In this document: positions 3,473 through 58,833 of the stretch, in pieces
Layout: every line of letters begins with the position of its first letter
Numbering within the stretch: position 1 is the first letter of the stretch
Source of the DNA: Nitrospirota bacterium
GTDB taxonomy: Bacteria > Nitrospirota > Nitrospiria > Nitrospirales > Nitrospiraceae
Assembly: GCA_040757595.1 (NCBI GenBank)
Contig: JBFLWP010000002.1
Span: forward strand, 62,001 to 126,000
Length of the DNA: 64,000 bases
Direction: 5' to 3'
Notes under the pieces: model-generated
Seen by the model: only the letters and a program-made list of their open reading frames with translations
The model's database searches: none
Told to the model about the DNA's origin: nothing
Made by a program: the position numbers and the translations under genes

Positions 3473-4591
3473 ATGTCATCGTTGGAGTCCATCCAGCAGT
3501 GCCTGACCAACCGACTGGACCGGCGGAGCCGAGAGGTCCGGTGGCTCACCGGCCTGCTCGGCCAAGAGCCGTCCAGAGACGCGAAGGCCCCGTCGGTCTG
3601 GAACCCCGCACTCCGCAGCGTGGGCGTGGACGCCTGGTACCAGCCGTTCGACGTTGCGGCGGCGAACCTGCCCCGGTTTCTTGAGGCAGCCCGTGCCTGT
3701 GACCACGTCAAGGGGTTCAACGTCGTCGCCCCCTACAAGGAGACGATCATCCCTCTGCTGGACGAGGTCGAACCTCAAGCCAGCCGGATCGGAGTCGTGG
3801 ACACGATCGTGCGAACCGAAGGGGGACGCTTGATCGGGTCCAACGCCGAGGGGGCGGGGATCCTGGCCTGCCTGCTCTGCCCTCGGTACAACGAGCCGGC
3901 GTCTTTTATCGAAGAGTCCCGGGGTCTCGCGGGCATGAAGGTGCTGCTCCTGGGCGCCGGGTGCACGGCAAGAGCCCTGGCCTGGCCGCTGGCCCAAGCG
4001 GTCGGTCCCGGCCATCTGTACCTGGCCAACCGGACCAGGGAGAAGGCCGAGACCCTCGCACGGGCGCTCGCGCCCTCCTGCCTGAACGTCACCTGTCTGG
4101 ACGAGACGGCTCTCGAGACGGTCGCTCCTCTGGCCGGCCTGATCATCAATGCCACCACCAAGGGGCAAGCGGGGTTCTGGACCCTGCCGGACGGGATGAT
4201 GACCTGTCTGGAACCCTATTCGGCGCTTGCGCCGGCCAACCCGGTCAGCCTGCCCAGGGACCTGGCCAAGGACTCGGTCCAGTTCTACCAACAGTGGTAC
4301 CGGGCTTCCTTGCCGGACATCTCCGCCAACCTCGAGCGGTCCTCCCGGCTGATGGGGATGGTCCCCGAGTCAGTCAGATTCGTGGACTGCGTCTCCGCCC
4401 CGGCCGAGTCCGTCCTGCTGCGGCAGGCCCACAGGTCCGGGCACCGGACGATGAACGGCAAGGGGATCAGGATCTGCCAGATCGCGGACTGCCTGTTCCA
4501 CAAGCTGTTCCGTGACGACCTGGAGCGGTCCGGACGGTACGGGCCTGATCTCTACCGTCGGCTCATCGAGCAGATATGGGCAGCCTGGTAG
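3473..4591 (+). CDS. Shikimate dehydrogenase (AroE)-like protein, divergent active site
   Basis: This 372-residue protein has the AroE fold signals: GFNVVAPYK (Lys65 of E. coli AroE kept), LLLGAGCTARA for NADP, NRTREKA, INATTKGQ and a C-terminal GKGIRICQ (Gln244 kept). Most shikimate contacts are changed. The SKSP motif reads AKAP, NVT reads NVV, AVNT reads VVDT, the catalytic Asp of NTDG is Glu (NAEG), and the late Tyr is Ser. It is about 90 residues longer than standard AroE, partly through an insertion (LEPYSALAPA onward) shared with the paralogue at 6957. Either the substrate is not shikimate or this copy is a non-catalytic partner. Start is ATG 3473, 18 bp after the previous gene, without an obvious ribosome-binding site. 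Confidence 0.8.
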   Translation: MSSLESIQQCLTNRLDRRSREVRWLTGLLGQEPSRDAKAPSVWNPALRSVGVDAWYQPFDVAAANLPRFLEAARACDHVKGFNVVAPYKETIIPLLDEVEPQASRIGVVDTIVRTEGGRLIGSNAEGAGILACLLCPRYNEPASFIEESRGLAGMKVLLLGAGCTARALAWPLAQAVGPGHLYLANRTREKAETLARALAPSCLNVTCLDETALETVAPLAGLIINATTKGQAGFWTLPDGMMTCLEPYSALAPANPVSLPRDLAKDSVQFYQQWYRASLPDISANLERSSRLMGMVPESVRFVDCVSAPAESVLLRQAHRSGHRTMNGKGIRICQIADCLFHKLFRDDLERSGRYGPDLYRRLIEQIWAAW

Positions 4592-4776
4592 CGCAAGGTT
4601 CGTAGGCCGTTCCTGCCCGTCTACCAGGCAGTCTTTGCCGAGACCGGGACTCCCACCCATCCGAACGTCCATAACTCACCGAGTTTCCTGACGGTTCACC
4701 TCGCCCAACCCTGGCATGGGGCTTGGAATGGAGCGTCTGCGCCCACAAGAACCTCCATCGAAGGGAGCAGGCCGTC

Positions 4777-5832
4777 ATGAAGATTCTCCAGATCGGATTG
4801 GGCGGGTTCGGAAAAAATCACCTGCGGGCCTGGGCCCAGACAGGCCGGGTCCGCGACCTCTTCGTGGCGGATCTGAGCCAGGGTCGGCTCAAGGAGGCGC
4901 AGGACCTTTTCGGCATCCCTCCCGAGCGGCTCTCGAGCGACTATCGGCAGTTCCTCCCTCAGGCGGACATCGTGGACATCGTGACGCCCTCCGACAGCCA
5001 TGCAGAGATTTGCGAGGAGGCGCTGGAGCTCGGCAAGGACGTGTTCGTCGAAAAGCCGATGACCATGACGGTCGCGGAGGCCGACCGGATCGCGGCAGCG
5101 GTCGAGCGGAGCCGCAGAATCCTTCAGGTGGGCTACTACTACCGATACCACCCGATCACCAAGTACGTCCGCGAGCAGGTCCGCCTGGGCCAGTTGGGGG
5201 CGCTTCGCTACCTCTCCGGACAGTTCATGGGGTTCAAGCGGGCACGGACCGACGTGGGGGTGACCCACACGGACGGCATCCATTTCATCGACCTGTTCAA
5301 CGACCTGATCGGCGAGACGCCGAGGGAAGCGTACGCGGTGATCCGGGATCATTTCGGGCGGGGGCTGGAGGATTTCTCGATCGTCCTGCTCCGGTACCCC
5401 AGCGGCGTCGTCGTCAAGGTGGAGTCCGGCTATGTCCAGCCGGGCAATTGGGTGGACCGCGTGGTCCCCAACGCGATGACGACCAAGGACATCACGCTGG
5501 TGGGGGAAAAGCGAACGATCCGCGCCGACTTCGAGATCGACAAGGTCGAGGTCTTCGAGGTTCGTCACGAGCTGCAGAACGGGATCTGGACACCGGTGCA
5601 CGGCCCATGCACGAGCCCGCGCCTCCGCTCGGTCACGCCGGTCGAGCTCGTGGCGCTGGAACTGGAGTCGTTCCTGGAATCCGTGGCCAAGCGGGAGATC
5701 CCCAGTCCGAACGTGACCGACAGCGGCACGGTCCTGGCTCGGATCATGGAAGCCGTGTACCGGTCCGCCGAGTCCGGGCGTCCGGCGACGGTGGAGCCGG
5801 TCGGCGAGGCGGTGGGCCTCGCAAAGACGTGA
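4777..5832 (+). CDS. Gfo/Idh/MocA family NAD(P)-dependent sugar oxidoreductase
   Basis: The 351-residue protein begins with a Rossmann nucleotide motif (IGLGGFGKNH) and contains EKPMTMT, the lysine motif of the Gfo/Idh/MocA family, followed by GYYYRYHP and the HTDGIHFID segment with the family's catalytic His region. These enzymes oxidise or reduce hydroxyls on nucleotide sugars or cyclitols. Start ATG 4777 is preferred over upstream in-frame GTG/ATG codons because the oxidoreductase fold begins there. It lies between the two AroE-like genes, so it probably acts on the same intermediate. Its stop TGA is the first TGA of a GTGACGG heptamer array. Confidence 0.85.
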   Translation: MKILQIGLGGFGKNHLRAWAQTGRVRDLFVADLSQGRLKEAQDLFGIPPERLSSDYRQFLPQADIVDIVTPSDSHAEICEEALELGKDVFVEKPMTMTVAEADRIAAAVERSRRILQVGYYYRYHPITKYVREQVRLGQLGALRYLSGQFMGFKRARTDVGVTHTDGIHFIDLFNDLIGETPREAYAVIRDHFGRGLEDFSIVLLRYPSGVVVKVESGYVQPGNWVDRVVPNAMTTKDITLVGEKRTIRADFEIDKVEVFEVRHELQNGIWTPVHGPCTSPRLRSVTPVELVALELESFLESVAKREIPSPNVTDSGTVLARIMEAVYRSAESGRPATVEPVGEAVGLAKT

Positions 5833-5914
5833 CGGGTGAAGCGTGACGCGTGACAGGTGCAGCGCGGTCCTTTCTGACTTGTTCGTCACCCGTCACCTGT
5901 CACCCGTCACGAGG
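5830..5914. repeat. Palindromic heptamer array B
   Basis: The left arm has the units GTGACGG, GTGAAGC, GTGACGC, GTGACAG, GTGCAGC. The right arm (5884-5912) has CGTCACC-type units, its inverted counterpart. The array starts inside the stop codon of the upstream oxidoreductase and ends at the ribosome-binding site of the next gene. Confidence 0.78.
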
Positions 5915-5919
5915 ATCGT

Positions 5920-6783
5920 ATGAAAGACATCAGCCAGAAGGACCTGGAAACCAACCTCCGCCTGGTCGCCAAGCAGGAGCCGGATCAGCGGACCCTGGTC
6001 CGCGTCGGATCGGTCGTGATCGGCGGGGAACAGGTCGCGGTGATGGCGGGGCCCTGCGCGGTGGAGAGCCGGGATCAGGTCGTCGAGATCGCCGCCCGGG
6101 TGAAGGCTTCCGGCGCCAGGCTGCTCCGGGGTGGCGCCTTCAAGCCCCTGACCTTTCCGTACCGGAACGAGCGGATGTTCGAGCTGCGGGAACGGGGGTT
6201 GGCCTATCTCAAAGAGGCGGGGGAGAAGACGGGCCTGCCGGTGGTCTCCGAGGTCATGGACGTACGGCTCGTCGGGCTGGTGGCCGACCACGTGGACATG
6301 ATCCAGATCGGCGCCCGCAACATGCAGAACTTTCCGTTGCTGGAAGAGGTGGCCAAGACCGGGAAGCCGGTCCTGCTCAAGCGTCATTACGGGGCCAGCC
6401 TGCGGGACTGGCTGGGAGCGGCCGAGTACCTCCTCTACAACGCCAACCGGAACGTGGTCCTCTGCGAACGGGGGATCGCCGCGCCCCACACGCACCAGCC
6501 CACCTCCCGGTTCATCGTGGACCTGCAGGTGGTGCCGGCGGTGCGCGATTTCACCCACCTGCCCGTGGTGGTGGACCCCAGTCACGCGACCTTCAAGCGC
6601 GACTACGTGCCGCCGATCGCCCGGGCCGCCGTCGCGGCCGGCGCAGACGGCCTGCTGATCGATGTCCATCCGGTTCCGGAGCAGGCGGCGGTGGATCCCC
6701 TCCAGGCGCTCGACTACCGCTCGTTCGGCCGGCTCATGGAGCAGGTGTCGGCCATCGCCGGCGTGCTGGGCCGGACAATTTAG
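5920..6783 (+). CDS. DAHP-synthase-like 3-deoxy-2-keto sugar acid synthase
   Basis: This 287-residue TIM-barrel enzyme matches the AroF/Thermotoga-type DAHP synthase family, which condenses phosphoenolpyruvate with an aldose phosphate. It has GPCAVES with the metal Cys, LLRGGAFKP, QIGARNMQN, PVLLKR, LCERGI and VDPSHAT with the metal His. The erythrose-4-phosphate motif KPRTS, however, reads KPLTF, the KRG motif reads KRH, and the ATRNTLD region is replaced by a His-rich stretch. The metal Glu before VHP is Asp. The acceptor aldehyde may therefore differ from erythrose 4-phosphate. It sits between two AroE-like genes, in a flagellar glycan island rather than in an aromatic operon. A housekeeping role cannot be excluded. 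Confidence 0.82.
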   Translation: MKDISQKDLETNLRLVAKQEPDQRTLVRVGSVVIGGEQVAVMAGPCAVESRDQVVEIAARVKASGARLLRGGAFKPLTFPYRNERMFELRERGLAYLKEAGEKTGLPVVSEVMDVRLVGLVADHVDMIQIGARNMQNFPLLEEVAKTGKPVLLKRHYGASLRDWLGAAEYLLYNANRNVVLCERGIAAPHTHQPTSRFIVDLQVVPAVRDFTHLPVVVDPSHATFKRDYVPPIARAAVAAGADGLLIDVHPVPEQAAVDPLQALDYRSFGRLMEQVSAIAGVLGRTI

Positions 6784-6786
6784 AAG

Positions 6787-6945
6787 GATGAACGCTGAAT
6801 GCTGAACGATGAGCGATGGACGCTGGATGCTGCACGGCAAGAGCTGAGTAACGGCATGAACATGGTTGGGGGTTGGTGGTCGGTGATGAGAGCACCCCAA
6901 AGTCTTCACCAACCACAGACCACTAACCACTGATCGCCTCTACTA
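6787..6945. repeat. Heptamer array C, two consecutive blocks
   Basis: The first block (about 6787-6836) runs GATGAAC, GCTGAAT, GCTGAAC, GATGAGC, GATGGAC, GCTGGAT, GCTGCAC without a clear inverted arm. The second (about 6862-6935) has GGTTGGT/GGTCGGT-type units answered by ACCAACC/ACCACTA units, an inverted pair. Together they fill the 173-bp gap before the second AroE-like gene. Confidence 0.7.
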
Positions 6946-6956
6946 GGGAGGAGGAG

Positions 6957-8066
6957 ATGTTAAAGACCCTGACCATCGAAGACTGTCTGTCCAACCGGCT
7001 CGACCCGCGCGCGCGCAGGGCCAAACGGTTGGCCGGGATTGTGGGGGAGAATCCCTCGAAATACGCGAAGAGCCCGTCCATCTGGAATCCGGTCCTGGAG
7101 GCGATGGGACTCGAGACCTACTACAGTCCCTTCGACGTCGAGGCCGGCCAGCTCGTGGCCTTCGTCGAAGCGGCCCGGCACGAGGAACGGCTGAAGGGAT
7201 TCAGCGTGACCGTGCCTTACAAGGTCGCGATCATCCCGCTCCTGGATGAGCTGGACCCCAAGGCGCGGGCCATCGGGGCGGTGAACGTCGTGACCCGGAC
7301 CGACGAGGGCAAGCTGATCGGAGCCAACACGGACGGATCCGGCGCCATCGCCAGCCTGACCACGCCGCTCCCGGGGTCCAGCGCTCCCTTCCTGGCGGAC
7401 TTGACCGGAAAGGACGTTCTGCTGATCGGGGCCGGCGGGGCCGGCAAGGCGGTCGCCTGGTACCTGGCCGATGCGATCGGGAAGGGCCGGCTTTACCTGG
7501 CCACCAGGGACCGGAAGTCGGGCAGCACCCTCTGCGAGGCCCTGTCCACGGTGAACCCCTCAACGGCCTGGATCGAGGAAATGGCGATCCCGGCCGTGGC
7601 GCCGACCGTCCAACTCATCATCAACGCGACGACCAAGGGCCAGTCGGGGATTCGCGCCCTGCCGGACGGGAGGGTGAGCTGCCTGGAACCCTACTCGGCG
7701 TTGGCGCCGGCCTGCCCCGCGCCCTTGCCCGCCACGCTGGCTGCCGACCAGGCGCGGTTCTACGAGACCTGGTTCCGGTCCTCGCTGGCCGACCTGACGG
7801 TCAATCTGGACCGGTCCGCCCGGCTGCTGGTGACGATCCCCCAGGCCGTGGCGTTCATGGACATCATCTACTCGCCGCTGGAATCGGCCATGCTGAGGCA
7901 GGCGCGACTGTCCGGCCACAGGACCTTGAACGGCAAGGGCATGAACGTCTGCCAAGCGGCGGACGCCCTGTTCCACTGGGTCTTCCGTCGGGAGTTCGAG
8001 GAACAAGGCCTCGACCAACCGGCCGTCTACCGCGGCATCGTCGAACGCATGGGCTCGGTCTGGTGA
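6957..8066 (+). CDS. Shikimate dehydrogenase (AroE)-like protein, more canonical paralogue
   Basis: The 369-residue protein is a full-length paralogue of the product of 3473-4591, sharing the long N-terminal lead (CLSNRLDPRARRAKRL) and the roughly 70-residue insertion after NATTKGQ. Here catalytic Lys (SVTVPYK), Asp (ANTDGSG), Asn (GAVNVV), Gln (NVCQAAD) and late Tyr (IIYSPLE) are kept. Only one Ser of SKSP is lost (AKSP), and the His after it is Trp. NADP binding is by GAGGAGKAV. It probably is an active dehydrogenase of a shikimate- or quinate-like ring, but loss of the Ser that holds the carboxylate argues for a different substrate. Start ATG 6957 follows GGGAGGAGGAG. It ends 11 bp before the NeuB-like gene. 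Confidence 0.85.
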   Translation: MLKTLTIEDCLSNRLDPRARRAKRLAGIVGENPSKYAKSPSIWNPVLEAMGLETYYSPFDVEAGQLVAFVEAARHEERLKGFSVTVPYKVAIIPLLDELDPKARAIGAVNVVTRTDEGKLIGANTDGSGAIASLTTPLPGSSAPFLADLTGKDVLLIGAGGAGKAVAWYLADAIGKGRLYLATRDRKSGSTLCEALSTVNPSTAWIEEMAIPAVAPTVQLIINATTKGQSGIRALPDGRVSCLEPYSALAPACPAPLPATLAADQARFYETWFRSSLADLTVNLDRSARLLVTIPQAVAFMDIIYSPLESAMLRQARLSGHRTLNGKGMNVCQAADALFHWVFRREFEEQGLDQPAVYRGIVERMGSVW

Positions 8067-8076
8067 CGTCACGGTG

Positions 8077-9111
8077 ATGGGCACGGTCAAGCGCAACGGC
8101 AACGGGCAGGGGAGCTGGCGGCGCTCCTACGTGCTGGCCCGGACCGGCGAGCACCACCTCGGTCAATTGGAAACGGCCAAGCGTCTGGTGGATGCGGCGG
8201 TGCAGGCCGGCTGCGACGGGGTTCGGTTCGACAAGCGCTCGGTCGAGCAGGGCTACGTCAAGTCTGTGCTGGATCGTCCGCTGCTCAAGTATCCGGCATT
8301 CGGCCGGACCGTCAGGGAAGTCATCAACGGCTTCGACCTGTCCCCCATCGCGCTGCGCGAGCTCAAGGACTACTGCGCGGATCGGATCGAGTTCGTCCTC
8401 GCCCCTTTCGACGTTCCCTCGATCCGGATGGCGGACGAAATCGACGCGGACGCGGTCATGATCGACGCGGTGGCGGCCAGCAACTGGCCGCTGGTGCGGG
8501 AGGTTGCCCGTCGTCAGAAACGGATCTTCCTCGCCACGGGGCTGCTGACCGAGGGGGAGATCGAGGATCTGGTGGAGCTCTTCAGCGGACACAACCTGAC
8601 GCTCCTTCACAGCATCTTCCTCCGTCCCTTCGAAGTCAATCTGGCCTATCTCAGCGTGCTCGCCTGGCTGAAACAGTTCGGCCGGCGGGTGGGCTACACG
8701 GACAACGAGCCGGGCGTCACGATGGTGATGGCGGCGCTCGGCCTGGGCGCCACCGTCGTCGAAAAGGCCCTGGCCCTGGACCGGGACCTCGACCTGCCCC
8801 ACGGGAGCGGCCTCAGCCCCGCCGAAATGGGCAGGCTCATCAGGGCGATCCGCGAGACCGACAAGGAGCCGATCTCGATCATCCGCAAGAAGCTCCTGGC
8901 CGCCCAGAGCGATCTCTTCGACGACGAGCAGGCGTCGCTCGTGGCGGCGCGGGCCATCCCGGCGGGCACGGTGCTGACCGAGGACCTGCTCGCGCTCAAG
9001 GCGCCGTATCGGGGGCTGAGCCCCAGGCTCGCCCCGGAGGTGATCGGAAAACGGATCCTCTACGCCCTGGAGCAGGACGACTTCATCACCTTCGGCATGC
9101 TGGAACCGTGA
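8077..9111 (+). CDS. NeuB-like (sialic acid synthase family) protein with SAF domain
   Basis: About 344 residues. The N-terminal TIM barrel resembles NeuB/PseI/LegI synthases, which condense phosphoenolpyruvate with an N-acylated hexosamine. The C-terminal SAF (antifreeze-like) domain is clear (LVAARAIPAGTVLTEDLL to IGKRI). Recognisable barrel signals are LLHS, GYTDNEPG, LGLGATVVEKALALDR and LSPAEMGRLIRAIRE. Compared with NeuB, SDHT has become TDNE, so the second metal His is Asn. EKHF has become EKAL, and the N-terminal AExGxNHxG motif is changed. It may use a different substrate or metal arrangement, or be inactive. ATG 8077 is preferred over GTG 8074; neither has a good ribosome-binding site. 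Confidence 0.8.
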   Translation: MGTVKRNGNGQGSWRRSYVLARTGEHHLGQLETAKRLVDAAVQAGCDGVRFDKRSVEQGYVKSVLDRPLLKYPAFGRTVREVINGFDLSPIALRELKDYCADRIEFVLAPFDVPSIRMADEIDADAVMIDAVAASNWPLVREVARRQKRIFLATGLLTEGEIEDLVELFSGHNLTLLHSIFLRPFEVNLAYLSVLAWLKQFGRRVGYTDNEPGVTMVMAALGLGATVVEKALALDRDLDLPHGSGLSPAEMGRLIRAIRETDKEPISIIRKKLLAAQSDLFDDEQASLVAARAIPAGTVLTEDLLALKAPYRGLSPRLAPEVIGKRILYALEQDDFITFGMLEP

Positions 9112-9236
9112 AGCGTAAGACGTGAAACGTGAGACGTGAGAGGAAAGGTTAAGGAGACGGCACATGATGCCCGGTTGTGCGCGCGGTCTTACGTCTTGCG
9201 TTTCACGTTTCACGTCTTACGTCTCACGTCTCACGA
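9109..9236. repeat. Palindromic heptamer array D
   Basis: Left arm units GTGAAGC, GTAAGAC, GTGAAAC, GTGAGAC, GTGAGAG begin at the stop codon of the NeuB-like gene. The right arm (about 9187-9235) has seven units of TCTTACG/TTTCACG/TCTCACG type. It occupies the whole gap up to the glycosyltransferase start. Confidence 0.8.
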
Positions 9237-9243
9237 GTGGGAA

Positions 9244-9972
9244 ATGATTTCCGTCATCGTCCGGACCAAGAACGAGCAGAAGTGGATCGGGCGCTGCCTG
9301 GCCGCCGTGTCCCGGCAGGCCGGACCGGACTTCGAAGTCATCGTCGTGGACAACTGCTCCACCGACGCGACGCTGGATCTCATCAAGCGGTTCGACGTGA
9401 AGCTGGTGACCATTTCAGACGAAGAGTTCACCTTCGGCCGGTCGCTCAACGTCGGCATCCGGGCGGCCCGCGGGGAGTTCATCGCGATGATCTCCGGCCA
9501 TTGCGTCCCCGCCACGGACCTGTGGCTGTACCGGCTCTGGCGCAACTTCCAACTCGACCCGGCCGTGGTCGGGGTCTACGGGAAACAGGAGCCGCTTCCG
9601 GACACCAACAGCCTGGACAAGCGCGACCTGCTGACCGTCTTCGGCCTGGAGCGGCGGGTGCAGGAGAAAGATTATTTCTTTCACAACGCCAACTCGATGG
9701 TCCGCCGCTCCACCTGGGAGCAGATTCCCTTCGACGAGGAGATCGCGGGGGTCGAAGACCGGGATTGGGCCAGACGGGTGCTGGACCAGGGCCACAAGAT
9801 CGTCTACGAGCCCTACGCGGCGGTCTACCACCATCACGGGATCAACCACTCGGGCGACAGCAAGAGAGCCGATCGCGTGGTGCGCGTGATCGAGCTCATC
9901 CACAACGGACGGGGCGACCTGGCCACCACCGGGGCGAAGGCGGCCAGGGTCGCCGTGACGGGTGACACGTGA
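9244..9972 (+). CDS. Family 2 glycosyltransferase
   Basis: This 242-residue protein has a GT-A fold: ISVIVRTKNE at the N-terminus, VVDNCSTDATLD, then FGRSLNVGIRAARGEFIAMISGH carrying the region normally occupied by DxD, and VEDRDWARR as the catalytic-base (ED) motif. It probably transfers a nucleotide-activated sugar in the flagellar glycan pathway; donor and acceptor cannot be read from sequence. ATG 9244 is used because it directly precedes the conserved first strand; the in-frame upstream part is heptamer repeat. The last codons and the stop also come from a GTGACxx heptamer run. Confidence 0.88.
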   Translation: MISVIVRTKNEQKWIGRCLAAVSRQAGPDFEVIVVDNCSTDATLDLIKRFDVKLVTISDEEFTFGRSLNVGIRAARGEFIAMISGHCVPATDLWLYRLWRNFQLDPAVVGVYGKQEPLPDTNSLDKRDLLTVFGLERRVQEKDYFFHNANSMVRRSTWEQIPFDEEIAGVEDRDWARRVLDQGHKIVYEPYAAVYHHHGINHSGDSKRADRVVRVIELIHNGRGDLATTGAKAARVAVTGDT

Positions 9973-9984
9973 CGGGTGACTCGG
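9956..9984. repeat. Short heptamer run E
   Basis: Four consecutive units, GTGACGG, GTGACAC, GTGACGG and GTGACTC, have an exact 7-bp period. They overlap the 3' end and stop codon of the glycosyltransferase gene. No inverted arm is present here. Confidence 0.75.
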
Positions 9985-9999
9985 TAAGGAGCGAAAACC

Positions 10000-10740
10000 A
10001 TGGGAATCCCTGAGCGACCGATCACTCCATCACCCGTCGCGCCGCGCGTGGTGGCCATCATTCCGGCCAGGGGAGGGTCCAAGGGGCTGCCGGGGAAGAA
10101 CGTCCGGATGCTCGGAGGGAAGCCCCTGCTGGCCTACACGATCGAAGCGGCGACGGCCTGCCCCCTGATCGATCGCGTCCTCGTCACGACGGACGATCCG
10201 GTCATCGCCTCGGTCGCCAATCAATATGGGGCCGAAACCCCGTTCCTCCGCCCGCCGGAGCTGGCCAGGGACGACACGCCAACCGAGCCGGTCCTGGCCC
10301 ACGCCGTCGAGTGGCTGGAGCGGGAGGAGGGCTATCGGACCGACATCGTGGTCTTCTTCCAACCCACCGACATTTTTCGGAAGCGTTGGATGGTGGAGCA
10401 GGTCGTGAGCCGGCTGCTGGCGGACGAGAACCTCGACTCGGTCTTCATGGCCTACAAGACCCACAAGAATTTCTGGCGCAGGCAGAACGGGGCCTACGTC
10501 CGCCTGGCGCCGGACATCAGCTACGGGCCCAGACAGAAACGCGAGCCCCTGTTCCGGGAGGACACGGGCCTGGCCTGCGCGACCAGGGCGCGCTTCATCA
10601 AGGCCGGACGGCGGCTGGGCGACCGGGTGGACCTGGTCGTGACCGACGACGTCTGCAGCGGCGTGGACATCCACGACGAGTTCGACTTCTGGATGGCCGA
10701 GCGGATCGTGGACGAGCACAAACGGACGGTCAACGACTGA
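10000..10740 (+). CDS. Acylneuraminate cytidylyltransferase (NeuA/PseF-like), canonical copy
   Basis: The 246-residue protein carries the full CMP-sugar synthetase signature IPARGGSKGLPGKN near residue 20, then KPLLAYTIEAA, VTTDD and an FFQPTD segment. This family activates sialic, pseudaminic or legionaminic acids as CMP sugars for transfer to flagellin or polysaccharide. Start ATG 10000 has TAAGGAG upstream. A second, divergent copy follows at 10844. Together with the NeuB-like gene this is the best evidence that the island makes a nonulosonic-acid-type sugar. Confidence 0.9.
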   Translation: MGIPERPITPSPVAPRVVAIIPARGGSKGLPGKNVRMLGGKPLLAYTIEAATACPLIDRVLVTTDDPVIASVANQYGAETPFLRPPELARDDTPTEPVLAHAVEWLEREEGYRTDIVVFFQPTDIFRKRWMVEQVVSRLLADENLDSVFMAYKTHKNFWRRQNGAYVRLAPDISYGPRQKREPLFREDTGLACATRARFIKAGRRLGDRVDLVVTDDVCSGVDIHDEFDFWMAERIVDEHKRTVND

Positions 10741-10741
10741 A

Positions 10742-10832
10742 TGAGCTTATGGCTCATGGCGTATAGTCAGAAAAGCACAAGGGCTTATGGCCGGATTCAT
10801 TCCTGCCATAAGCTATAAGCCATATGCTCTTG
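10742..10832. repeat. Palindromic heptamer array F
   Basis: Left arm units GCTTATG, GCTCATG, GCGTATA are answered by GCCATAA, GCTATAA, GCCATAT units on the right. It fills the space between the two NeuA-like genes. The heptamer is unlike those of the other arrays, although the architecture is the same. Confidence 0.72.
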
Positions 10833-10843
10833 GAGCCCTTTAA

Positions 10844-11524
10844 ATGAACACCATCGCCATCATCCCGATCAGGGGGAACGATCCCCAGGCCCAGCCGGGC
10901 TTCACGCTCGGCGGCCGGCCGCTCCTGGCCTACACGGTGGAGGCGGCCCGCGCCTCGCGCCTCATCGAGCGGGTCGTCGTCACGACCGACTCGCCGGAGA
11001 TCGCTGGTCTGGCCAGGGACTGCGGGGCCGACGCGCCGTTCCTCAGACCGGCGGAGCTGAGCCGTCCCGAAGTCCCGTTGGGGTCGGTCCTGAAGCACTG
11101 CGTGGACTGGCTGGAGCGGGAGGAGGCCTGCCGGACCGACATCGTCACGCTCCTGGAAATCACCCATCCGATCAGGGAGGAGGGGCTCATCGACCAGGTC
11201 ATCCAGGTCCTGCTGGACCAGCACCTGGACTCCGTCTTCGTGGCGGTCGAAGAGCGGCAGTCCTTCTGGCGGATGGACCGTTACGGGGCCCTGATCCGGG
11301 TGGGGGACGAGGAAGACCAACCCAGACAGACGAGGGAACCGCTCTACCGGGAGATGGGCGGGATCGTGACCGCCACCCGGGCCGAATGGATCAAGGAAGG
11401 CAAGCGTCTCGGCAAGCGCGTGGGCCTGATTCCGCTCCGCTCCTTGAGCGCCAAGGTGGACACCCACGACGAGGTCGGGCTCTTTCTGGCCCGGCACCTG
11501 GCCTTGACGATCACGGTGGGTTGA
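10844..11524 (+). CDS. Cytidylyltransferase (NeuA)-like protein with degenerate signature
   Basis: This 226-residue paralogue of the preceding gene keeps the fold pattern (RPLLAYTVEAARAS, VVTTDSPEIAGLA, FLRPAEL, VDWLEREE, VDTHDEVG). Its nucleotide-binding signature is broken: IPARGGSKGLPGKN reads IPIRGNDPQAQPGFT, and QPTD reads EITHP. It may form a heteromer with the canonical copy, use another nucleotide, or be inactive. GGAG at 10832-10835 precedes ATG 10844. Its TGA stop overlaps the next ATG by one base, which indicates translational coupling to the epimerase. Confidence 0.78.
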   Translation: MNTIAIIPIRGNDPQAQPGFTLGGRPLLAYTVEAARASRLIERVVVTTDSPEIAGLARDCGADAPFLRPAELSRPEVPLGSVLKHCVDWLEREEACRTDIVTLLEITHPIREEGLIDQVIQVLLDQHLDSVFVAVEERQSFWRMDRYGALIRVGDEEDQPRQTREPLYREMGGIVTATRAEWIKEGKRLGKRVGLIPLRSLSAKVDTHDEVGLFLARHLALTITVG

Positions 11525-12495
11525 TGGACCTGGCCGGCACAAAGCTGCTCGTCATCGGGGGAGCGGGATTCATCGGCTCCCACGTGGTAGACGCGCTCGT
11601 CAAGACCGACGCGGCCGAAATCGTCGTGTACGACAACTTCACGAGGGGCAGCCGGGACAACCTGCAAGAGGCCCTGCGCGATCCCCGCGTCCGGGTCTAC
11701 GAGGCGGGGGGCGACATCCTGCACACCGATGTCCTCGATCGAGCCATGAAAGGCGTGGACGGGGTCTTCCACCTGGCCGCGCTCTGGCTTCTCCACTGCC
11801 ACGACTATCCGCGGGTCGCGTTCGACGTGAACGTCCGCGGGACCTTCAACGTCCTGGAGGCCTGCGTCGCCAACGGCGTGAAGCGGCTGGTGTACTCCTC
11901 CTCCGCCTCCGTCTACGGCGACGCCGCGACGGTCCCCATGACCGAAGACCATCCGTACAACAACCGCACGTTCTACGGCGCGACAAAGATCGCAGGCGAG
12001 CACATGTGCCGGGCCTTCCACGCCCGCTACGGGCTCGATTATGCGGCGCTCCGGTACATGAACGTCTACGGCCCGCGCCAGGATCACCGCGGCGCCTACG
12101 TCGCCGTCATCATGCGGCATCTGGAGCGGATTGCCCAGGGGTTGCCGCCGATCCTCAGCGGAGATGGCAGCCAGGAATACGACTTCATCCACGTGGGAGA
12201 CGTGGCCCGCGCCAACCTGCTGGCCATCCAGGCCGACGTGTCCGACCGCTGGTACAACGTCGGGACCGGGAGCGGCACGACGCTGCGAACCCTGACCGGG
12301 CTCGTCCTGGAACTCGCCGGCAGCACCTTGCCCGTCCGGTACGAATCGGGAGGTCAGACCTTCGTCACGAAACGGGTCGGCGATCCGTCCAGGGCCGCCA
12401 GGGACCTCGGGTTCCGCGCGGCCGTGGACCTGCGGAGCGGGTTGCAAGACGTGATCGGATGGTGGCGGGCGCAACGGCCGGTCGCCGTCGGATAG
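11524..12495 (+). CDS. NAD-dependent nucleotide-sugar epimerase/dehydratase (extended SDR)
   Basis: The 323-residue extended short-chain dehydrogenase has IGGAGFIGSH for NAD, YDNFTRG, a Ser in SSSASVYG and the catalytic pair in YGATK, ending with the usual sugar-binding C-terminal half (MNVYGPRQ, DFIHVGDVA). This is the UDP/dTDP-hexose epimerase or dehydratase class (GalE/WbpP/WbiB-like). It is coupled to the upstream NeuA-like gene and followed by a DegT aminotransferase 7 bp later. The pair could make an amino sugar used as glycan precursor. Confidence 0.9.
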   Translation: MDLAGTKLLVIGGAGFIGSHVVDALVKTDAAEIVVYDNFTRGSRDNLQEALRDPRVRVYEAGGDILHTDVLDRAMKGVDGVFHLAALWLLHCHDYPRVAFDVNVRGTFNVLEACVANGVKRLVYSSSASVYGDAATVPMTEDHPYNNRTFYGATKIAGEHMCRAFHARYGLDYAALRYMNVYGPRQDHRGAYVAVIMRHLERIAQGLPPILSGDGSQEYDFIHVGDVARANLLAIQADVSDRWYNVGTGSGTTLRTLTGLVLELAGSTLPVRYESGGQTFVTKRVGDPSRAARDLGFRAAVDLRSGLQDVIGWWRAQRPVAVG

Positions 12496-12502
12496 GGGAG
12501 CC

Positions 12503-13693
12503 GTGAACCGGATTCCGATTGCCAGGCCCGTGTTCGACGAGCAGGATCGCGCCGCCGTCCTCAAGCCCTTGGAGAGCGGCTGGGTCGTGCAGGGCCCGTA
12601 CGTCAAGCAGTTCGAGGACCGTTTCTCCGCCTTCACCGGCGCGCCGTTCTCGGTTGCGACGAGTTCCTGCACCGCGGCTCTCCACATCGCCGTGGCGGCG
12701 CTGGGACTCAAGCCCGGCGACGAGGTGATCGTGCCCGCCTTCACCTGGGTCTCCACCGCCAATGTCGTCGAATACCTCGGGGCTGCCCCCGTCTTCTGCG
12801 ACGTGGATCTCGCGACGTTCAACATCGATCCGGACCACATCGCCGCGCTGATCACCCCGCGCACGGTCGGCATCATCCCCGTCCATCTGTTCGGCCTCTG
12901 CGCGGACATGGCCCCCATCCTGAAGCTTGCCCGGGCGCACGGGCTCTGGGTGGTGGAGGACGCCGCCTGCGGGCTCGGGGCCAGGTACCACGGCCGCCAC
13001 GCGGGGACGATGGGTGACGCCGGATGTTTCAGCTTCCATCCTCGCAAGGCCATTACCACGGGGGAAGGCGGCATGATCACCACGAATCGGGAAGAGCTCG
13101 ACGGGCTCGCCCGTTCCTTGCGCGATCACGGCGCGTCCCGATCCGATCGCGCGCGTCACGAGGGACAGGACGCATTTCTCCTGGCCGAGTACGACCGACT
13201 GGGCTTCAACTACCGCCTGACCGACCTGCAGGGCGCGCTGGGCTGCGCCCAGATGGACCGGCTCGAGCGGATCCTGACGGAACGGGCGAGTCTGGCGCGG
13301 CGGTATGACGAGATTCTGCAAGATGCGGACTGGCTGGAGGCGCCGAAGGCGCCGGACGGGCACGAACACGGATACCAGGCCTACGTCTGCCTCTTTCGCC
13401 CGGAGACGCCCACGCTGCGCAACGCGGACAGGCTTCACCGCTGGCGAAACGACGTCATGCGAAAGCTTGAAGCGGCGGGGATCGCCACCCGCCAGGGTAC
13501 GCACGCCCCCGTTCGGCTCGGCTATTACGCCCGCAAGTACGGGTTGAAGCCGGAGCAGTTCCCTCGCGCGTACCTCGCCGATCGGTTGAGCCTGGCGTTG
13601 CCGTTGTTCCCGCGGATGACCGAAGCCGAACAGGTGACGGTCGCCGCTGAACTGCGGCGCGCCTTTTCCACAACAATCGTTGGCAGGCTTTGA
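12503..13693 (+). CDS. DegT/DnrJ/EryC1 family PLP-dependent sugar aminotransferase
   Basis: The 396-residue aspartate-aminotransferase-fold enzyme has SSCTAALHIA (phosphate pocket), PAFTWVSTAN, VVEDAACGLGA with the pyridine-nitrogen Asp, and SFHPRKAITTGEGG with the Schiff-base Lys at about residue 182. It transfers an amino group to a keto sugar nucleotide, typically the product of the adjacent SDR enzyme. GTG start at 12503, 7 bp after the epimerase. Strong family match; the sugar is unknown. Confidence 0.92.
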   Translation: MNRIPIARPVFDEQDRAAVLKPLESGWVVQGPYVKQFEDRFSAFTGAPFSVATSSCTAALHIAVAALGLKPGDEVIVPAFTWVSTANVVEYLGAAPVFCDVDLATFNIDPDHIAALITPRTVGIIPVHLFGLCADMAPILKLARAHGLWVVEDAACGLGARYHGRHAGTMGDAGCFSFHPRKAITTGEGGMITTNREELDGLARSLRDHGASRSDRARHEGQDAFLLAEYDRLGFNYRLTDLQGALGCAQMDRLERILTERASLARRYDEILQDADWLEAPKAPDGHEHGYQAYVCLFRPETPTLRNADRLHRWRNDVMRKLEAAGIATRQGTHAPVRLGYYARKYGLKPEQFPRAYLADRLSLALPLFPRMTEAEQVTVAAELRRAFSTTIVGRL

Positions 13694-13956: not shown

Positions 13957-15894
13957 ATGTGCGGGATCGTGGGAATCGTGAACGTGAACGGTGAGCCGGT
14001 CTCCGAGAGACAACTGGGGAGCATGACGAACCGTCTCGCCCACCGCGGACCCGACGACCGCGGCCTGTACACCGAAGGGCCTGTCGGGCTTGGGCACCGC
14101 CGACTGGCGGTCATCGATTTATCCCCGACAGCCCATCAACCCATGCTCTCGACCTGCGGCCGGTTCGTCGTGGCATACAACGGCGAGATCTACAACTTCC
14201 GGGATCTGCGGGAGGAGCTGGAGCGCAAAGGGTACTGGTTCCGATCGCAGTCCGACACCGAAGTCCTGCTGAACGCCTACGTGGAATGGAGGGAGGACTG
14301 CCTGAGCCGGCTCAACGGCATGTTCGCGTTCGCCATCTGGGACCGCCAGCGCAGGCGGTTGATTCTGGCCCGCGACCGGTATGGGGTCAAACCCCTGTAC
14401 TGGTACGAAAAGGGGGGCCTGTTCCTGGCTGCCTCGGAGATCAAGGCGATCCTCGAACACCCCCGCGTGACCCGCGACGTCAACGGCCCGGCGCTCAACG
14501 AATATTTCACGTTCCAGAACATCTTCAGCGACGCGACGCTGTTCGAGGGGATCCGGCTTCTGCCACCCGGCTGCATCCTGACACTAGACCTTCAGGGGCG
14601 CGGCGGCGCAGCCCAGAGACGGTACTGGGACTACGAGTTCACCGGAGCGCTCTCGCATCTGTCGGACGAGGAGGCCTCGGACCGCCTGTGCGACCTCTTC
14701 AGCCGGGCCGTGACGCGGCAACTGGTCAGCGACGTCACGGTCGGCAGTTACCTGAGCGGCGGAATCGACTCCAGCTCGATCACCGCCGTGGCCGCCAAGC
14801 GCTTGCCGCGCCTGACCACCTTCACGGGCGGCTTCGATCTGACCTCGGCATCGGGTCTGGAACTGGGATTCGACGAGCGCCCCGTCGCCGAGGTCCTGGC
14901 CAACCAATTCAAGACCGAGCATTACGAGGTGGTGTTGCACGCCGGGGACATGGAAGCGGTGATGCCGGCGCTCATCTGGCACATGGAGGATCTTCGGGTC
15001 GGCCAGTCCTATCCGAACTACTATGTAGCCCGCCTCGCCAGCAAATTCCTCAAGGTCGTTCTTTCCGGGACCGGGGGGGACGAGCTCTTCGGCGGATACC
15101 CCTGGCGCTACTACCGGGGCCTGCCGAGCCGCAGCCGGGAGGATTACTTCCGGCGCTATTACGAGTTCTGGCAGCGCCTCGTCAGAGACGAGGAGAAGGA
15201 GAGACTCTTCACCCCGGGAGTGCGCCGCCAGATCGGCGATCACTCCACCTACGAGACGTTCCGCGGCGTGTTCGCCTCCTGGTCCGGCGCGTTCGCCGAG
15301 CCGGATGACTATTTCCACGCCTCCCTCTATTTCGAACTCAAGACCTTCCTGCACGGGCTCTTGGTGGTCGAGGATAAGCTCAGCATGGCTCATTCCTTGG
15401 AAACACGCCTGCCTTTCCTGGACAACGACCTCGTGGACTTCGCACTGGCTCTGCCGGCCCGCTACAAGCTGGGCGGTGCGTCTCCGGCGGTTCGAGTCGA
15501 CGAAAACCGGCCTGCCAAGCGTCGGCTCTACGATCTCGAAACCAGCAACGGCAAGCCTCTGTTACGCCGGACCATGCGCCGCCTGATTCCCGAGGACGTG
15601 ACCCGACGCGCCAAACAAGGATTCAGCGCCCCGGACGCCAGTTGGTTCCGCGGGGAGAGCATAGATTACATCAACCGGTTGCTGCGGAACCCGCACGCGT
15701 TGATCTACGAATTCCTCACCCCCGCCTTGGTCGCGAGGGTGTTGGAAGACCATTGCTCGGGCCGAGTGAACCGGCGGCTGATGATCTGGTCGCTTCTGAG
15801 CTTCGAGTGGTGGTGCCGGACGTTCCTGATGCCCAACGGGCGGCCTGACTCCGCTTCCGAGAAGGCCGCCGACACCGTCGTGGTTGGAGGATAA
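13957..15894 (+). CDS. asnB: Asparagine synthase-type glutamine-dependent amidotransferase
   Basis: The 645-residue protein starts MCGIVGIV, so Cys2 is the glutaminase nucleophile of class II amidotransferases, and has HRGPDD and YNGEIYNF in that domain. The synthetase half has the ATP pyrophosphatase loop SGGIDSSS at about residue 268 and the RAKQGFSAP segment near the C-terminus. AsnB homologues inside polysaccharide islands often amidate a uronic or nonulosonic acid rather than aspartate; here the context supports that use. GGAGGGGA precedes ATG 13957. The formyltransferase-like gene starts 7 bp after its stop. Confidence 0.9.
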   Translation: MCGIVGIVNVNGEPVSERQLGSMTNRLAHRGPDDRGLYTEGPVGLGHRRLAVIDLSPTAHQPMLSTCGRFVVAYNGEIYNFRDLREELERKGYWFRSQSDTEVLLNAYVEWREDCLSRLNGMFAFAIWDRQRRRLILARDRYGVKPLYWYEKGGLFLAASEIKAILEHPRVTRDVNGPALNEYFTFQNIFSDATLFEGIRLLPPGCILTLDLQGRGGAAQRRYWDYEFTGALSHLSDEEASDRLCDLFSRAVTRQLVSDVTVGSYLSGGIDSSSITAVAAKRLPRLTTFTGGFDLTSASGLELGFDERPVAEVLANQFKTEHYEVVLHAGDMEAVMPALIWHMEDLRVGQSYPNYYVARLASKFLKVVLSGTGGDELFGGYPWRYYRGLPSRSREDYFRRYYEFWQRLVRDEEKERLFTPGVRRQIGDHSTYETFRGVFASWSGAFAEPDDYFHASLYFELKTFLHGLLVVEDKLSMAHSLETRLPFLDNDLVDFALALPARYKLGGASPAVRVDENRPAKRRLYDLETSNGKPLLRRTMRRLIPEDVTRRAKQGFSAPDASWFRGESIDYINRLLRNPHALIYEFLTPALVARVLEDHCSGRVNRRLMIWSLLSFEWWCRTFLMPNGRPDSASEKAADTVVVGG

Positions 15895-15901
15895 CGCACC
15901 C

Positions 15902-16711
15902 GTGCGGATTGTGTTCTTCGGCGCAACCGAAATGGGGTATCGGTGCTGTCGCCAGCTCTTGGAGACGGGGGAGGACATCGTCGGCATCCTCTCCATCCCG
16001 CAAGAGTTCCGCATCTCCTACGCGCCCGCGCCGGTCCGGAACGTGACGTTCCGCGATTTCGCCGATCTCGCCGGACGATACGACATCCCGCTCCTGTCTG
16101 TGACGGGGAAGATGAGCGACCCGCAGTACGTCACGACGCTCAAGAACTGGCGACCGGACTTCGGCCTTGCGATCGGTTGGTATTACATGATCCCCCGGGC
16201 CGTGCGCGAGCTGTTTCCGCTCGGCGTCGCGGGGATCCATGCCTCGCTCCTGCCCAAGTACCGGGGCGGAGCGCCGCTGGTGTGGGCGATGATCAACGGC
16301 GAGCGTGAGACCGGCGTGACGCTCTTCCACTTCGACGACGGAGTTGACACCGGCGACGTCATCGCGCAACAGGCGATCGAAATAGAAGCGCACGATACGA
16401 TCAAGACGCTCTACGAGAAGGCCACCCGTGCGTCGCTCGAAGTCCTGCGCCGACAGATCCCTCTGCTCCGCGAAGGCACGGCCCCGCGGGTGCCCCAGGA
16501 TCACGAGGCGGCGACCCAATTCCCCCAGCGGCGGCCTGAGGACGGTCTGATCGACTGGAGCAAGAGTCCGGACGAGATCCGCAACTTCATCCGTGCCCAG
16601 ACAAAACCCTACCCCGGCGCGTACACGCTCATCAACGGAAAGAAAATCATCATTTGGGACGCGGACGTCCTGGACACGCCCGCGGACGCCTTGGCGGGAG
16701 GTGCGCGGTGA
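15902..16711 (+). CDS. Formyltransferase-like protein (Fmt/ArnA-N family)
   Basis: About 269 residues. GTG 15902 is chosen over TTG 15884 because GGAGG (15886-15890) lies upstream at good spacing. It has the formyltransferase core IHASLLPKYRG and DDGVDTGDVI, with the catalytic His and Asp, followed by a C-terminal DWSKSPDEIRNFIRA segment. Relatives formylate amino sugars (ArnA, PseJ-like) or Met-tRNA using N10-formyl-tetrahydrofolate. The Asn normally two residues before the His (NxH) is Gly (GIH), so chemistry may be changed. It overlaps the next gene by four bases (GTGA), as expected for an operon. Confidence 0.82.
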   Translation: MRIVFFGATEMGYRCCRQLLETGEDIVGILSIPQEFRISYAPAPVRNVTFRDFADLAGRYDIPLLSVTGKMSDPQYVTTLKNWRPDFGLAIGWYYMIPRAVRELFPLGVAGIHASLLPKYRGGAPLVWAMINGERETGVTLFHFDDGVDTGDVIAQQAIEIEAHDTIKTLYEKATRASLEVLRRQIPLLREGTAPRVPQDHEAATQFPQRRPEDGLIDWSKSPDEIRNFIRAQTKPYPGAYTLINGKKIIIWDADVLDTPADALAGGAR

Positions 16712-17979
16712 CGGGAGTGCGGTACCGGATTGCCGGCCTGTCCGCCTACAGGGACGAATTGCGGACGATCATGGACCCCCTGCTGGCCGGCGCCGCCAGG
16801 CTCGGGCACGAGGCCCGGGCGCTGGCGGCCGGGGAGCCGAGCCGGGTTCTGGCCGCCCTTCGCGCCAAACGGGTTGACTTTTGCCTGCTGACGGGACGCA
16901 CCGCCTACTACCTTGCGCAGCACGCCCCCGAGCTCCTCCGGGCTTTGCAGGAGGAGCAGGTCCCGTCGGTTGCCCTCTGGTACGACAATCCGCTCCGGTA
17001 CCTCGACGTGGTTGCGGCCGTCTACGCGGACAACCTCCTTCTGCTGACCACAGCCGACACGAAGTGCGCAGAGGAATTGCGGAGGCTCGGGTTCGCGCGC
17101 GCGGCCTACTCGCCGGGCTGCTGCTTCAGCCCAAATTTCCAGCCGGGGTCGCCTACCGAGGACCTTCGCTGCGAGCTCTCGTTCGCCGGCGGCTACATGT
17201 CCAGAGACTATTTCGAGACCCGATACCTCCCGCAGCATTTCCGGTCCATGCACGAAATCCTCTTTGGCGACTGCCAAGACGGGACAGGGGAGGCGCTGCG
17301 TCGCCTGATCGAGGAGTTCCTGGCTCTCCGGAGAAACACGAGACGGCACGTGGACGTCTACGAGTACCTGCGGGATCGCCTCGCCCCCCTGGAACTCCGG
17401 CGCTACTTGCCCGGTTGCTCCCACCTCCTCATGCATTACCAAAAGACCCTGGAGCGTGAACAGCTCTTTGACGCGGTCACGAAAGTGCCCGATGCGACCT
17501 TGCACTGTTACGGAGGGGCCGACGTGGTGCTGCGGAAAGGCGACGTCATGGCTTCCCCCTGGAAGCGGGTCGTGTTTCACCCGTCGCTCGATCAGCACAC
17601 CGATCTGGGCCGGCTCTTCGTCTCGACCGGCATCAATCTGGGGCTCAGTCAGTTCCCCCGCGCGGTCCACCGACGGTACTTCGAAAGCGCGGCCTGCGGA
17701 GGGTTCATGATCGGGGAGTACAAGGACGACATCGAGGGATTGTTCGACGTGGGGCGGGAGATCGTCTGCTTCCGCGACTTGGACGAACTCCCCGACCTGA
17801 TCCGCCACTACCGGAAACGCGACGCGGAACGGGCCAGGATCGGACGTCTGGCCCACGAGCGGAGCGTGAAGCAGCATCAACCCTACCATCGCGTGCAGGC
17901 GCTCGTGCCGATCATTGCCCGGGAGCTCGAGCGGTTCCGCGACCTGTACGGCGCCAGGGGAGGCCTATGCACGAAGTGA
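16708..17979 (+). CDS. GT-B glycosyltransferase, CgeB/DUF3880-like
   Basis: Start GTG 16708 overlaps the preceding TGA (GTGA) and is preceded by GGGAGG. The 423-residue protein resembles CgeB-type glycosyltransferases: an N-terminal Rossmann half (GLSAYRDELRTIMDPLL), a middle SFAGGYMSRDYFE segment and a C-terminal donor-binding part with RRYFESAACGGFMIGEY and a DVGREIVCF stretch. These enzymes build glycans on surface structures, including flagella. Soluble, no membrane segments. It overlaps the following methyltransferase gene by 13 bases. Donor and acceptor are not identifiable. Confidence 0.8.
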   Translation: MTGVRYRIAGLSAYRDELRTIMDPLLAGAARLGHEARALAAGEPSRVLAALRAKRVDFCLLTGRTAYYLAQHAPELLRALQEEQVPSVALWYDNPLRYLDVVAAVYADNLLLLTTADTKCAEELRRLGFARAAYSPGCCFSPNFQPGSPTEDLRCELSFAGGYMSRDYFETRYLPQHFRSMHEILFGDCQDGTGEALRRLIEEFLALRRNTRRHVDVYEYLRDRLAPLELRRYLPGCSHLLMHYQKTLEREQLFDAVTKVPDATLHCYGGADVVLRKGDVMASPWKRVVFHPSLDQHTDLGRLFVSTGINLGLSQFPRAVHRRYFESAACGGFMIGEYKDDIEGLFDVGREIVCFRDLDELPDLIRHYRKRDAERARIGRLAHERSVKQHQPYHRVQALVPIIARELERFRDLYGARGGLCTK

Positions 17980-54083: not shown

Positions 54084-54373
54084 TGAGCCGACCCTCCCTC
54101 GCGCAGCTGGGCACGGATCTGGGCCAGCTGGTCACCCAGAAGAACCAGGCCTATGGGAACTCCTGGGCCAAGACCGGAGAGTTCCTCAAGCTCTTGTTTC
54201 CGGAGGGGATCCGGCCGGAGCAGTACACGGATGCGTTGCTGCTGGTCCGGATCTTCGACAAGCAGATGCGAATCGCCACTCGGAAGGGGGCGTTCGCGGA
54301 ATCCCCGTTCCAGGACATCGCCGGCTACGGGCTGCTCGGGATGTTCAAGGACCAGACCGAGGCGGGAGGCTGA
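54083..54373 (+). CDS. DUF1599/Nmad1-like small helical protein
   Basis: The 96-residue product starts at the ATG overlapping the previous stop. Motif QKNQAYGNSWAKTGEF followed by LLLVRIFDKQMRIATRKG and DIAGYGLLG is like the nucleotide-modification-associated domain 1/DUF1599, small proteins of phages and plasmids thought to act with nucleotide metabolism. Moderate match by eye. Confidence 0.62.
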   Translation: MSRPSLAQLGTDLGQLVTQKNQAYGNSWAKTGEFLKLLFPEGIRPEQYTDALLLVRIFDKQMRIATRKGAFAESPFQDIAGYGLLGMFKDQTEAGG

Positions 54374-54374
54374 C

Positions 54375-55950: not shown

Positions 55951-55987
55951 GCAGGCGGACAATCTCAGACAAGGAGACACACGCGGT

Positions 55988-58614: not shown

Positions 58615-58616
58615 GA

Positions 58617-58663
58617 AGCCAGAGGCGCGGCGAAGTGGAATCCTCCATGCAGCGCCTCTGGCT
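58617..58663 (+). other. 12-bp stem-loop after the helicase stop
   Basis: AGCCAGAGGCGC (58617-58628) pairs perfectly with GCGCCTCTGGCT (58652-58663). The 23-base loop contains the ATG (58647) of a 40-residue reading frame, so translation of that frame might be structure-controlled. Confidence 0.55.
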
Positions 58664-58769: not shown

Positions 58770-58793
58770 CACCCAGTCTCATGGGTAGTTGGC

Positions 58794-58833
58794 AAAGCGT
58801 CATGGAGGAGGAATCCTCCATGACGCTTTTTTT
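58794..58833 (+). terminator. Strong Rho-independent terminator
   Basis: A perfect 16-bp stem, AAAGCGTCATGGAGGA (58794-58809) with TCCTCCATGACGCTTT (58814-58829), GGAA tetraloop, followed by TTTT (T run 58827-58833). It ends the helicase operon. Confidence 0.92.

Follow-up and report, generated by a model that had tools for sequence, protein, structure and literature searches.

Why are relatives of DAHP (3-deoxy-D-arabino-heptulosonate 7-phosphate) synthase and of AroE, enzymes of aromatic synthesis, encoded in line with NeuB- and NeuA-type genes in a flagellar gene cluster? The question is raised by a 64,000-nucleotide stretch of a Nitrospirota bacterium (assembly GCA_040757595.1, contig JBFLWP010000002.1, positions 62,001 to 126,000; hereafter the window), whose source genome measures 3.37 Mb with a tool-estimated completeness of 100%. 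A sequence-only reading had seen here a candidate for an undescribed, carbocycle-type route to a cytidine monophosphate (CMP)-activated flagellar sugar resembling a nonulosonate (a nine-carbon sugar acid). The open reading frames (ORFs) that it named are all present at 3473-13693 on the plus strand, in the order and of the families given. It missed, however, a family 2 glycosyltransferase (GT2) at 9241-9972, between NeuB and NeuA1, and its NeuB-like, second NeuA-like and first AroE-like (3473-4591) proteins, although they fit their families, look catalytically degenerate. We report that this gene set probably makes an acidic sugar by a route other than those to sialic, pseudaminic and legionaminic acid, because the active site of the usual synthase, NeuB, is lost and its task appears to have passed to a DAHP synthase (DAHPS) relative. 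The genes concerned are:

3473-4591, plus strand: AroE1, AroE-like paralogue (Shikimate_dh_N 6e-17; 49% to AroE2; motifs below)
4780-5832, plus strand: Gfo/Idh/MocA-type oxidoreductase (GFO_IDH_MocA 3e-22)
5920-6783, plus strand: DAHPS-like phosphoenolpyruvate (PEP) aldolase (DAHP_synth_1 1e-60; motifs KPLTFPY, a PHTHxxxSR loop and DPSHATF)
6957-8066, plus strand: AroE2, AroE-like dehydrogenase (Shikimate_dh_N/Shikimate_DH; catalytic Lys and Asp kept; substrate motif AKSPSIWN)
8074-9111, plus strand: NeuB*, NeuB and SAF-fold protein (NeuB 1e-33, SAF 3.5e-9)
9241-9972, plus strand: GT2 glycosyltransferase (Glycos_transf_2 6e-26)
10000-10740, plus strand: NeuA1, putative CMP-sugar synthetase (CTP_transf_3 2.7e-21; RGGSKG..KN and GVDIHDEFDF kept)
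10844-11524, plus strand: NeuA2 (NeuA-prime), degenerate NeuA paralogue (CTP_transf_3 5e-9; GSK..KN lost)

For AroE, for NeuA and for the PEP-aldolase superfamily alike, the window thus pairs an apparently intact enzyme with a degenerate relative.

Conservation and distribution of the module

A core made up of the DAHPS-like protein, an AroE-like protein, GT2, and one intact and one degenerate NeuA is complete, or broken solely by contig ends, in 14 genomes of the Nitrospirota, Alphaproteobacteria and Patescibacteria, and this recurrence in three phyla argues that the gene set is no chance neighbourhood. Gene maps place the module in the window genome, G018 and G039 (Nitrospirota), in G061, G064 and G066 (Parcubacteria/Uhrbacteria, Patescibacteria) and in G062, G063, G065, G410, G620 and G685 (Alphaproteobacteria), the set of G065 being split over two contigs; in G427 and G412, contig ends truncate the module. 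GT2 was found in nine of the ten module genomes searched, the window genome included, while the G412 assembly shows none; it ranks among the best-conserved genes of the module.

The module is rare and scattered, since clear AroE-like relatives occur in 3 of 396 Nitrospirota, in 6 of 385 genomes of G063's class (Alphaproteobacteria) and in 1 of 240 of G064's phylum (Patescibacteria). These relatives were sought in 84,980 species, within the limits of exact peptide patterns, and in whole-genome surveys. A scan with the AroE2 sequence alone returned no match; an alignment-based scan returned 80 loci, mostly canonical aroE, and none of the canonical loci has a module neighbourhood. No description of the gene set was found in the open-access literature, so it is apparently undescribed.

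The closest comparison comes from G018, a genus-level relative in which DAHPS, AroE, NeuB*, GT2, NeuA, NeuA2, methyltransferases, Maf and flagellin follow one another as in the window. Its syntenic flagellar locus lacks the short-chain dehydrogenase/reductase (SDR), aminotransferase, AsnB and formyltransferase genes of the window, which are for this reason taken as accessory. The epimerase (our SDR) and aminotransferase had been counted as pathway members within one complete set; conservation across the 14 genomes holds for the core but does not extend to these two, which are absent from the matching locus of G018. The Gfo/Idh gene is also left out of the strict core, because the type found in most non-flagellar modules (41-52% identity) has no ortholog in the window genome or G018 (L045-type query, E<=1e-15 in the window genome); the window's own Gfo/Idh protein belongs to another branch. 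Downstream of the module in L043, an enolase-superfamily gene (7447-8616) resembles sugar acid dehydratases by eye.

Intact enzymes and degenerate partners

The DAHPS-like proteins form one clade in a tree of 13 module members and 10 canonical enzymes (support 100/99). They share family and PEP-side motifs with type I-beta DAHP synthases (1vs1, 1zco, 1rzm) but stand in another genomic setting and differ at substrate-side positions: all 13 carry KPL[TS]FPY, where 16 of 16 canonical proteins have KPR, all have a loop three residues longer that ends in HTHxxxSR, and all have SHxTF, where the motif of canonical enzymes ends in Gly (SHxTG or SHxGG). The missing Arg of KPR suggests that the aldehyde binds otherwise than erythrose 4-phosphate (E4P) and may be unphosphorylated. 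Alphaproteobacterial members have GPN where the metal-site motif is GPC; a Cys/Asn change also separates metal from non-metal 3-deoxy-D-manno-octulosonate 8-phosphate (KDO8P) synthases. In L155 (G065; 7523-10372) the DAHPS-like gene adjoins a two-gene transketolase, near a SIS/CBS sugar-phosphate isomerase-type gene, neighbours that hint at the origin of the aldehyde.

What these enzymes might make is best seen from genomes that lack the alternatives. In Patescibacteria G061, G064 and G066 the DAHPS-like protein is the sole PF00793 protein; the three have neither NeuB nor, genome-wide, dehydroquinate (DHQ) synthase, and each has an intact NeuA. CMP-synthetases of the NeuA family activate 2-ulosonic acids. 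Because these genomes keep an intact NeuA without NeuB, the best candidate for the NeuA substrate is what the DAHPS-like enzyme makes, or a derivative of that compound, and the DAHPS-like enzyme is likely to be a ulosonate synthase. The same logic applies more weakly to the window genome, whose only NeuB is degenerate. There, a canonical DAHP synthase and a canonical AroE lie on contig C3, DHQ synthase (aroB) on C1 and a further PF00793 protein on C7, so that the module copies are surplus to aromatic synthesis.

The AroE-like proteins (n=15) also form one clade (tree, SH-aLRT 98), marked by motifs of the xPSxxARSPxLWN type in which one residue is inserted; in all of them the first Ser of SxSP, the SxS carboxylate-binding motif, has become Ala. 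AroE2 has the family and catalytic Lys and Asp of AroE (2egg, 1nvt); the AroE-like proteins differ from AroE in a GARSP-type motif, with the inserted residue, in place of HSxSP, and in genomic setting. AroE1, with Glu for the Asp of NTDG (GSNAEG for GxNTDG), VVDT for AVNT and KAPS for SxSP, is probably non-catalytic to judge by these motifs. Among the top four Protein Data Bank matches of AroE2 is a 5-ketofructose reductase (7cok; 4.8e-24), an AroE-type protein acting on a keto-sugar, with distant sequence similarity only; the relationship of one such enzyme to shikimate dehydrogenases has been noted (PMC7954740). Keto-sugar reduction by an AroE-like enzyme therefore has a precedent. AroE1-type domains also form the C-terminal part of proteins of about 690 aa in L035 (925-2994, G025) and L036 (17013-19109, G007), which by eye start with receiver (response-regulator) and PAS domains; both share with AroE1 of the window the replacement of the catalytic Asp by Glu, and the L036 copy comes after flagellar genes.

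The third pair centres on NeuB*. In Neisseria NeuB the active site comprises Glu25, Gln55, Asn74, Thr110, Phe112, Lys129, Asn184, Tyr186, Ser213, His215, Glu234 and Phe288, with Arg314 from the SAF domain (PMC6795526). In an alignment with intact NeuB proteins, NeuB* reads ARTGEHH where these are of AEIGINH type, VRFD against VKFQ, MIDA against KIxS, GYTDN against GFSDH (SDH), VEKA against IEKH and KAP against KRP; at the position of YP it has a Pro-Phe stretch that lacks Tyr. It is changed at the positions of Glu25, Gln55, Lys129, Tyr186, Ser213, His215 and Arg314, and also at what we take to be that of His236. With most catalytic residues lost, NeuB* is a probable pseudoenzyme. No second NeuB was found in the window genome, where two further NeuB-family matches are DAHP synthases; since this single NeuB no longer has an active site, a nonulosonate product is doubtful. 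In other modules (L046, L151, L152, L158) nothing is left of the barrel, and the same position is taken by a SAF-type protein about 160-190 aa long; an AlphaFold model of such a protein was poor (predicted local distance difference test, pLDDT, 61; SAF part <50) and was not used as evidence.

In the alignment, NeuA1 keeps the GSK...KN motif of an apparently intact CMP-sugar synthetase and NeuA2 has lost it. The degenerate NeuA is fused to GT2 in seven genomes (L037, L041, L043, L045, L047, L153, L154) and free in six. In the six unfused modules NeuB* or a small SAF-type protein precedes GT2, whereas in the seven fused modules no such gene adjoins GT2 within the core; the relatedness of the genomes makes this a pattern without statistical weight. 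Possibly a covalent fusion has been exchanged for a scaffold, and the inactive proteins, we conjecture, hold synthetase and transferase together. GT2 itself has an invariant-His motif, S[GSA]H[CA][VI]P, at the DxD position in 12 of 12 aligned proteins, and a DxD-less enzyme would suit a metal-independent reaction. Its structure model (pLDDT 86) is a plain GT-A fold whose nearest structures are UDP-, GDP- and dTDP-sugar enzymes, and so gives no donor identity.

A candidate ulosonate pathway and its alternatives

Compared with the sialic (Neu), legionaminic (Leg) and pseudaminic (Pse) acid pathways, the window likewise has a PEP-aldolase superfamily protein, a CMP-sugar synthetase and a Maf-type transferase beside flagellin, but no PseB, NeuC or LegG and a degenerate NeuB; in their stead stand the DAHPS-like enzyme, the AroE-like reductase and the paired intact and degenerate NeuA. 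Genome-wide, no PseB passes the cut-off (the best match, the window's own SDR, reaches 61.6 bits against 407.75) and NeuC/LegG have no match; the SDR also falls below the LegB cut-off. PseG and PseH/LegH were not seen among the ORFs of the window, no genome-wide search having been made for them. A degraded Pse/Leg pathway was rejected on the absence of PseB and NeuC/LegG and the degeneracy of the single NeuB. Of the components of such a pathway, a CMP-sugar synthetase is present in NeuA1, with its motifs intact. A Maf/MptE-like protein stands next to flagellin in both the window and G018. The sequence-only reading was right that this is not a known Pse/Leg set, within the searches just described, and its CMP activation is supported, as the gene for an intact NeuA accompanies those for a Maf-domain protein and flagellin. 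The 3-deoxy-D-manno-octulosonic acid (Kdo) pathway (KdsD-KdsA-KdsC-KdsB-KdtA) similarly has a DAHPS/KdsA-superfamily aldolase feeding a CMP-synthetase; here, however, the aldolase scores as DAHPS, far above its KdsA score, and an AroE-like reductase and GT2 replace the Kdo-specific partners.

From the gene set, its conservation, the residue changes and the genome-wide absences we infer the chemistry and, in outline, the sugar. With slightly more confidence than doubt, we propose that the core (DAHPS-like enzyme, AroE2, NeuA1 and NeuA2, GT2 and NeuB*) yields a CMP-activated 3-deoxy-2-ulosonic acid without passing through NeuB or KdsA. The DAHPS-like aldolase would condense PEP with an aldehyde other than E4P to a 3-deoxy-2-ulosonate, and the AroE-like enzyme would reduce a keto-sugar before or after this condensation; together with the Gfo/Idh enzyme it could invert one hydroxyl. 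NeuA1 would make the CMP-sugar, perhaps as a heterodimer with inactive NeuA2, and NeuB* would serve as a non-catalytic scaffold or lid that retains its SAF domain. The DxD-less GT2 may add the sugar to a glycan or extend the sugar once it is there, and in the window genome the Maf-type protein would transfer the sugar to flagellin. It is feasible that a Maf protein uses a donor that is not a nonulosonate, since the Maf of Clostridium botulinum accepts CMP-Kdo as well as CMP-Neu5Ac (PMC11339370).

Several points weigh against this proposal. The DAHPS-like protein exceeds the NCBIfam cut-offs for DAHPS (354.9 bits against 335) and could therefore still act on E4P, with DAHP as product; the part of the Arg of KPRT as a phosphate ligand is presumed. 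Use of a CMP donor by GT2 is conjecture, the Patescibacteria genomes are drafts of unstated completeness, and several module-bearing Alphaproteobacteria also have intact-looking NeuB genes. One of them, the Magnetovibrio G063 (L044, L156, L158), has two NeuB genes and a PseG-like gene in the module's locus, and this strain may produce an ordinary nonulosonate besides the module's sugar.

The Magnetovibrio arrangement, in which the module adjoins PseG- and NeuB-type genes, would also suit a different role for the DAHPS-like and AroE-like enzymes, namely making a reduced 3-deoxy-aldonic acid, which an ordinary nonulosonic acid would carry as an acyl or ether side group. The flagellar glycan of Treponema denticola reportedly carries a 2-methoxy-4,5,6-trihydroxyhexanoyl group on a Pse-type sugar, which PEP aldol addition, 2-keto reduction and methylation would fit; methyltransferases flank the core, and 2-keto acid reduction suits an AroE-type enzyme. 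Such a side group would, however, need a base sugar, for which the module-bearing Patescibacteria have no NeuB and the window genome a degenerate one, and we consider it rather unlikely. NeuB* could instead be active with unusual chemistry and make a nonulosonic acid, leaving the DAHPS-like enzyme a side function. It is full length and 73% identical in G018, which speaks for constraint on the protein, but its changed catalytic positions, and the survival of only a SAF-type protein in modules that have lost the barrel, make this improbable.

The remaining readings keep closer to aromatic chemistry. A shikimate- or quinate-like ring, made by the DAHPS and AroE homologues and attached to a glycan, would parallel the aminoshikimate (3-amino-5-hydroxybenzoic acid) gene sets, such as rif for rifamycin, which bring DAHPS, AroE, Gfo/Idh and DegT aminotransferase families together. 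All four families are present in the window, and aroB on another contig could in principle supply the ring. But the module clusters lack the dedicated DHQ synthase of those sets and have NeuA, GT2 and Maf; the aminotransferase lies outside the core, which an intact NeuA accompanies; and DHQ synthase is missing from every module and from the three Patescibacteria genomes, where DAHP cannot then be cyclised. This speaks strongly against the carbocycle-type chemistry first suggested, which we rejected as the principal explanation and hold to be very improbable. Nor do we give much credence to ordinary accessory DAHPS and AroE enzymes of aromatic synthesis lying by chance in a glycan cluster: the DAHPS-like protein passes the NCBIfam cut-off for its family, yet canonical copies lie elsewhere in the genome, the module occurs in genomes without DHQ synthase, and its enzymes form separate clades with changed motifs. 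This explanation, too, was rejected on the first two grounds.

The proposed CMP-ulosonate route can be stated more broadly, and here we are distinctly tentative: it may represent an undescribed class of pathway in which a DAHPS offshoot replaces NeuB/KdsA and active enzymes are assembled with inactive paralogues (NeuA with NeuA2, the DAHPS-like enzyme with NeuB*), yielding a sugar acid new to biology that would go onto flagellin in this bacterium and, in the Alphaproteobacteria and Patescibacteria, onto other surface glycans. Bacterial surface ulosonic acids are now assigned to one of three or four known pathways, with NeuB as the gene that genome tools seek. If the proposal is true, a class of surface and flagellar sugars is being overlooked, or its genes mistaken for aromatic biosynthesis, even in Patescibacteria without DHQ synthase. 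The pseudoenzymes, among them a degenerate NeuA fused to a glycosyltransferase and a degenerate NeuB that keeps its SAF domain, raise the question of complex formation, and a module of about five proteins is suited to in vitro reconstitution.

Flagellar setting and neighbouring genes

Beyond NeuA2 the cluster continues with accessory genes, a glycosyltransferase, methyltransferases and the likely acceptor:

11524-12495, plus strand: SDR sugar epimerase/dehydratase, accessory (Epimerase 1e-57; below the cut-offs of the NCBIfam models shown)
12503-13693, plus strand: DegT-type sugar aminotransferase, accessory (DegT 3e-111; PseC 308 bits, below the cut-off of 423.5)
13957-15894, plus strand: AsnB-type amidotransferase, accessory
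15884-16711, plus strand: formyltransferase, accessory
17967-19421, plus strand: methyltransferase (58% homologue in the same position in G018)
19443-23003, plus strand: Maf-type (MptE-like) flagellin glycosyltransferase with methyltransferase and TPR regions (PF01973 3.5e-38; PseD/Maf model 3.7e-22, below cut-off; 66% in G018)
25664-27526, plus strand: flagellin, likely acceptor (Flagellin_N 8e-44, Flagellin_C 4e-24; 72% identity in G018)

The 18 kb upstream of the window contain FliA-, FlgF/G-, FlgA-, FlgH-, FlgI-, FlgK- and FlgL-like ORFs (named by eye), that is, rod, ring and hook-associated genes and flagellar regulators. The flagellar setting of the cluster, asserted earlier, is real, because the cluster reaches a Maf-domain protein and flagellin and has FlgK/FlgL-type genes upstream of the window.

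In two Alphaproteobacteria (L150, L151) the modules have as neighbours TPR proteins and very long ORFs resembling surface proteins, which are possible acceptors or FlmG/OGT-like transferases. Elsewhere in the window, two methyl-accepting chemotaxis proteins (40655-42376 and 43288-44904) have nearly identical C-terminal halves and different sensor halves, which looks like a recent duplication or gene conversion. A run of methyltransferase, helicase, EAL-domain and nuclease-like genes at 54153-62682, identified by eye, is possibly a mobile element.

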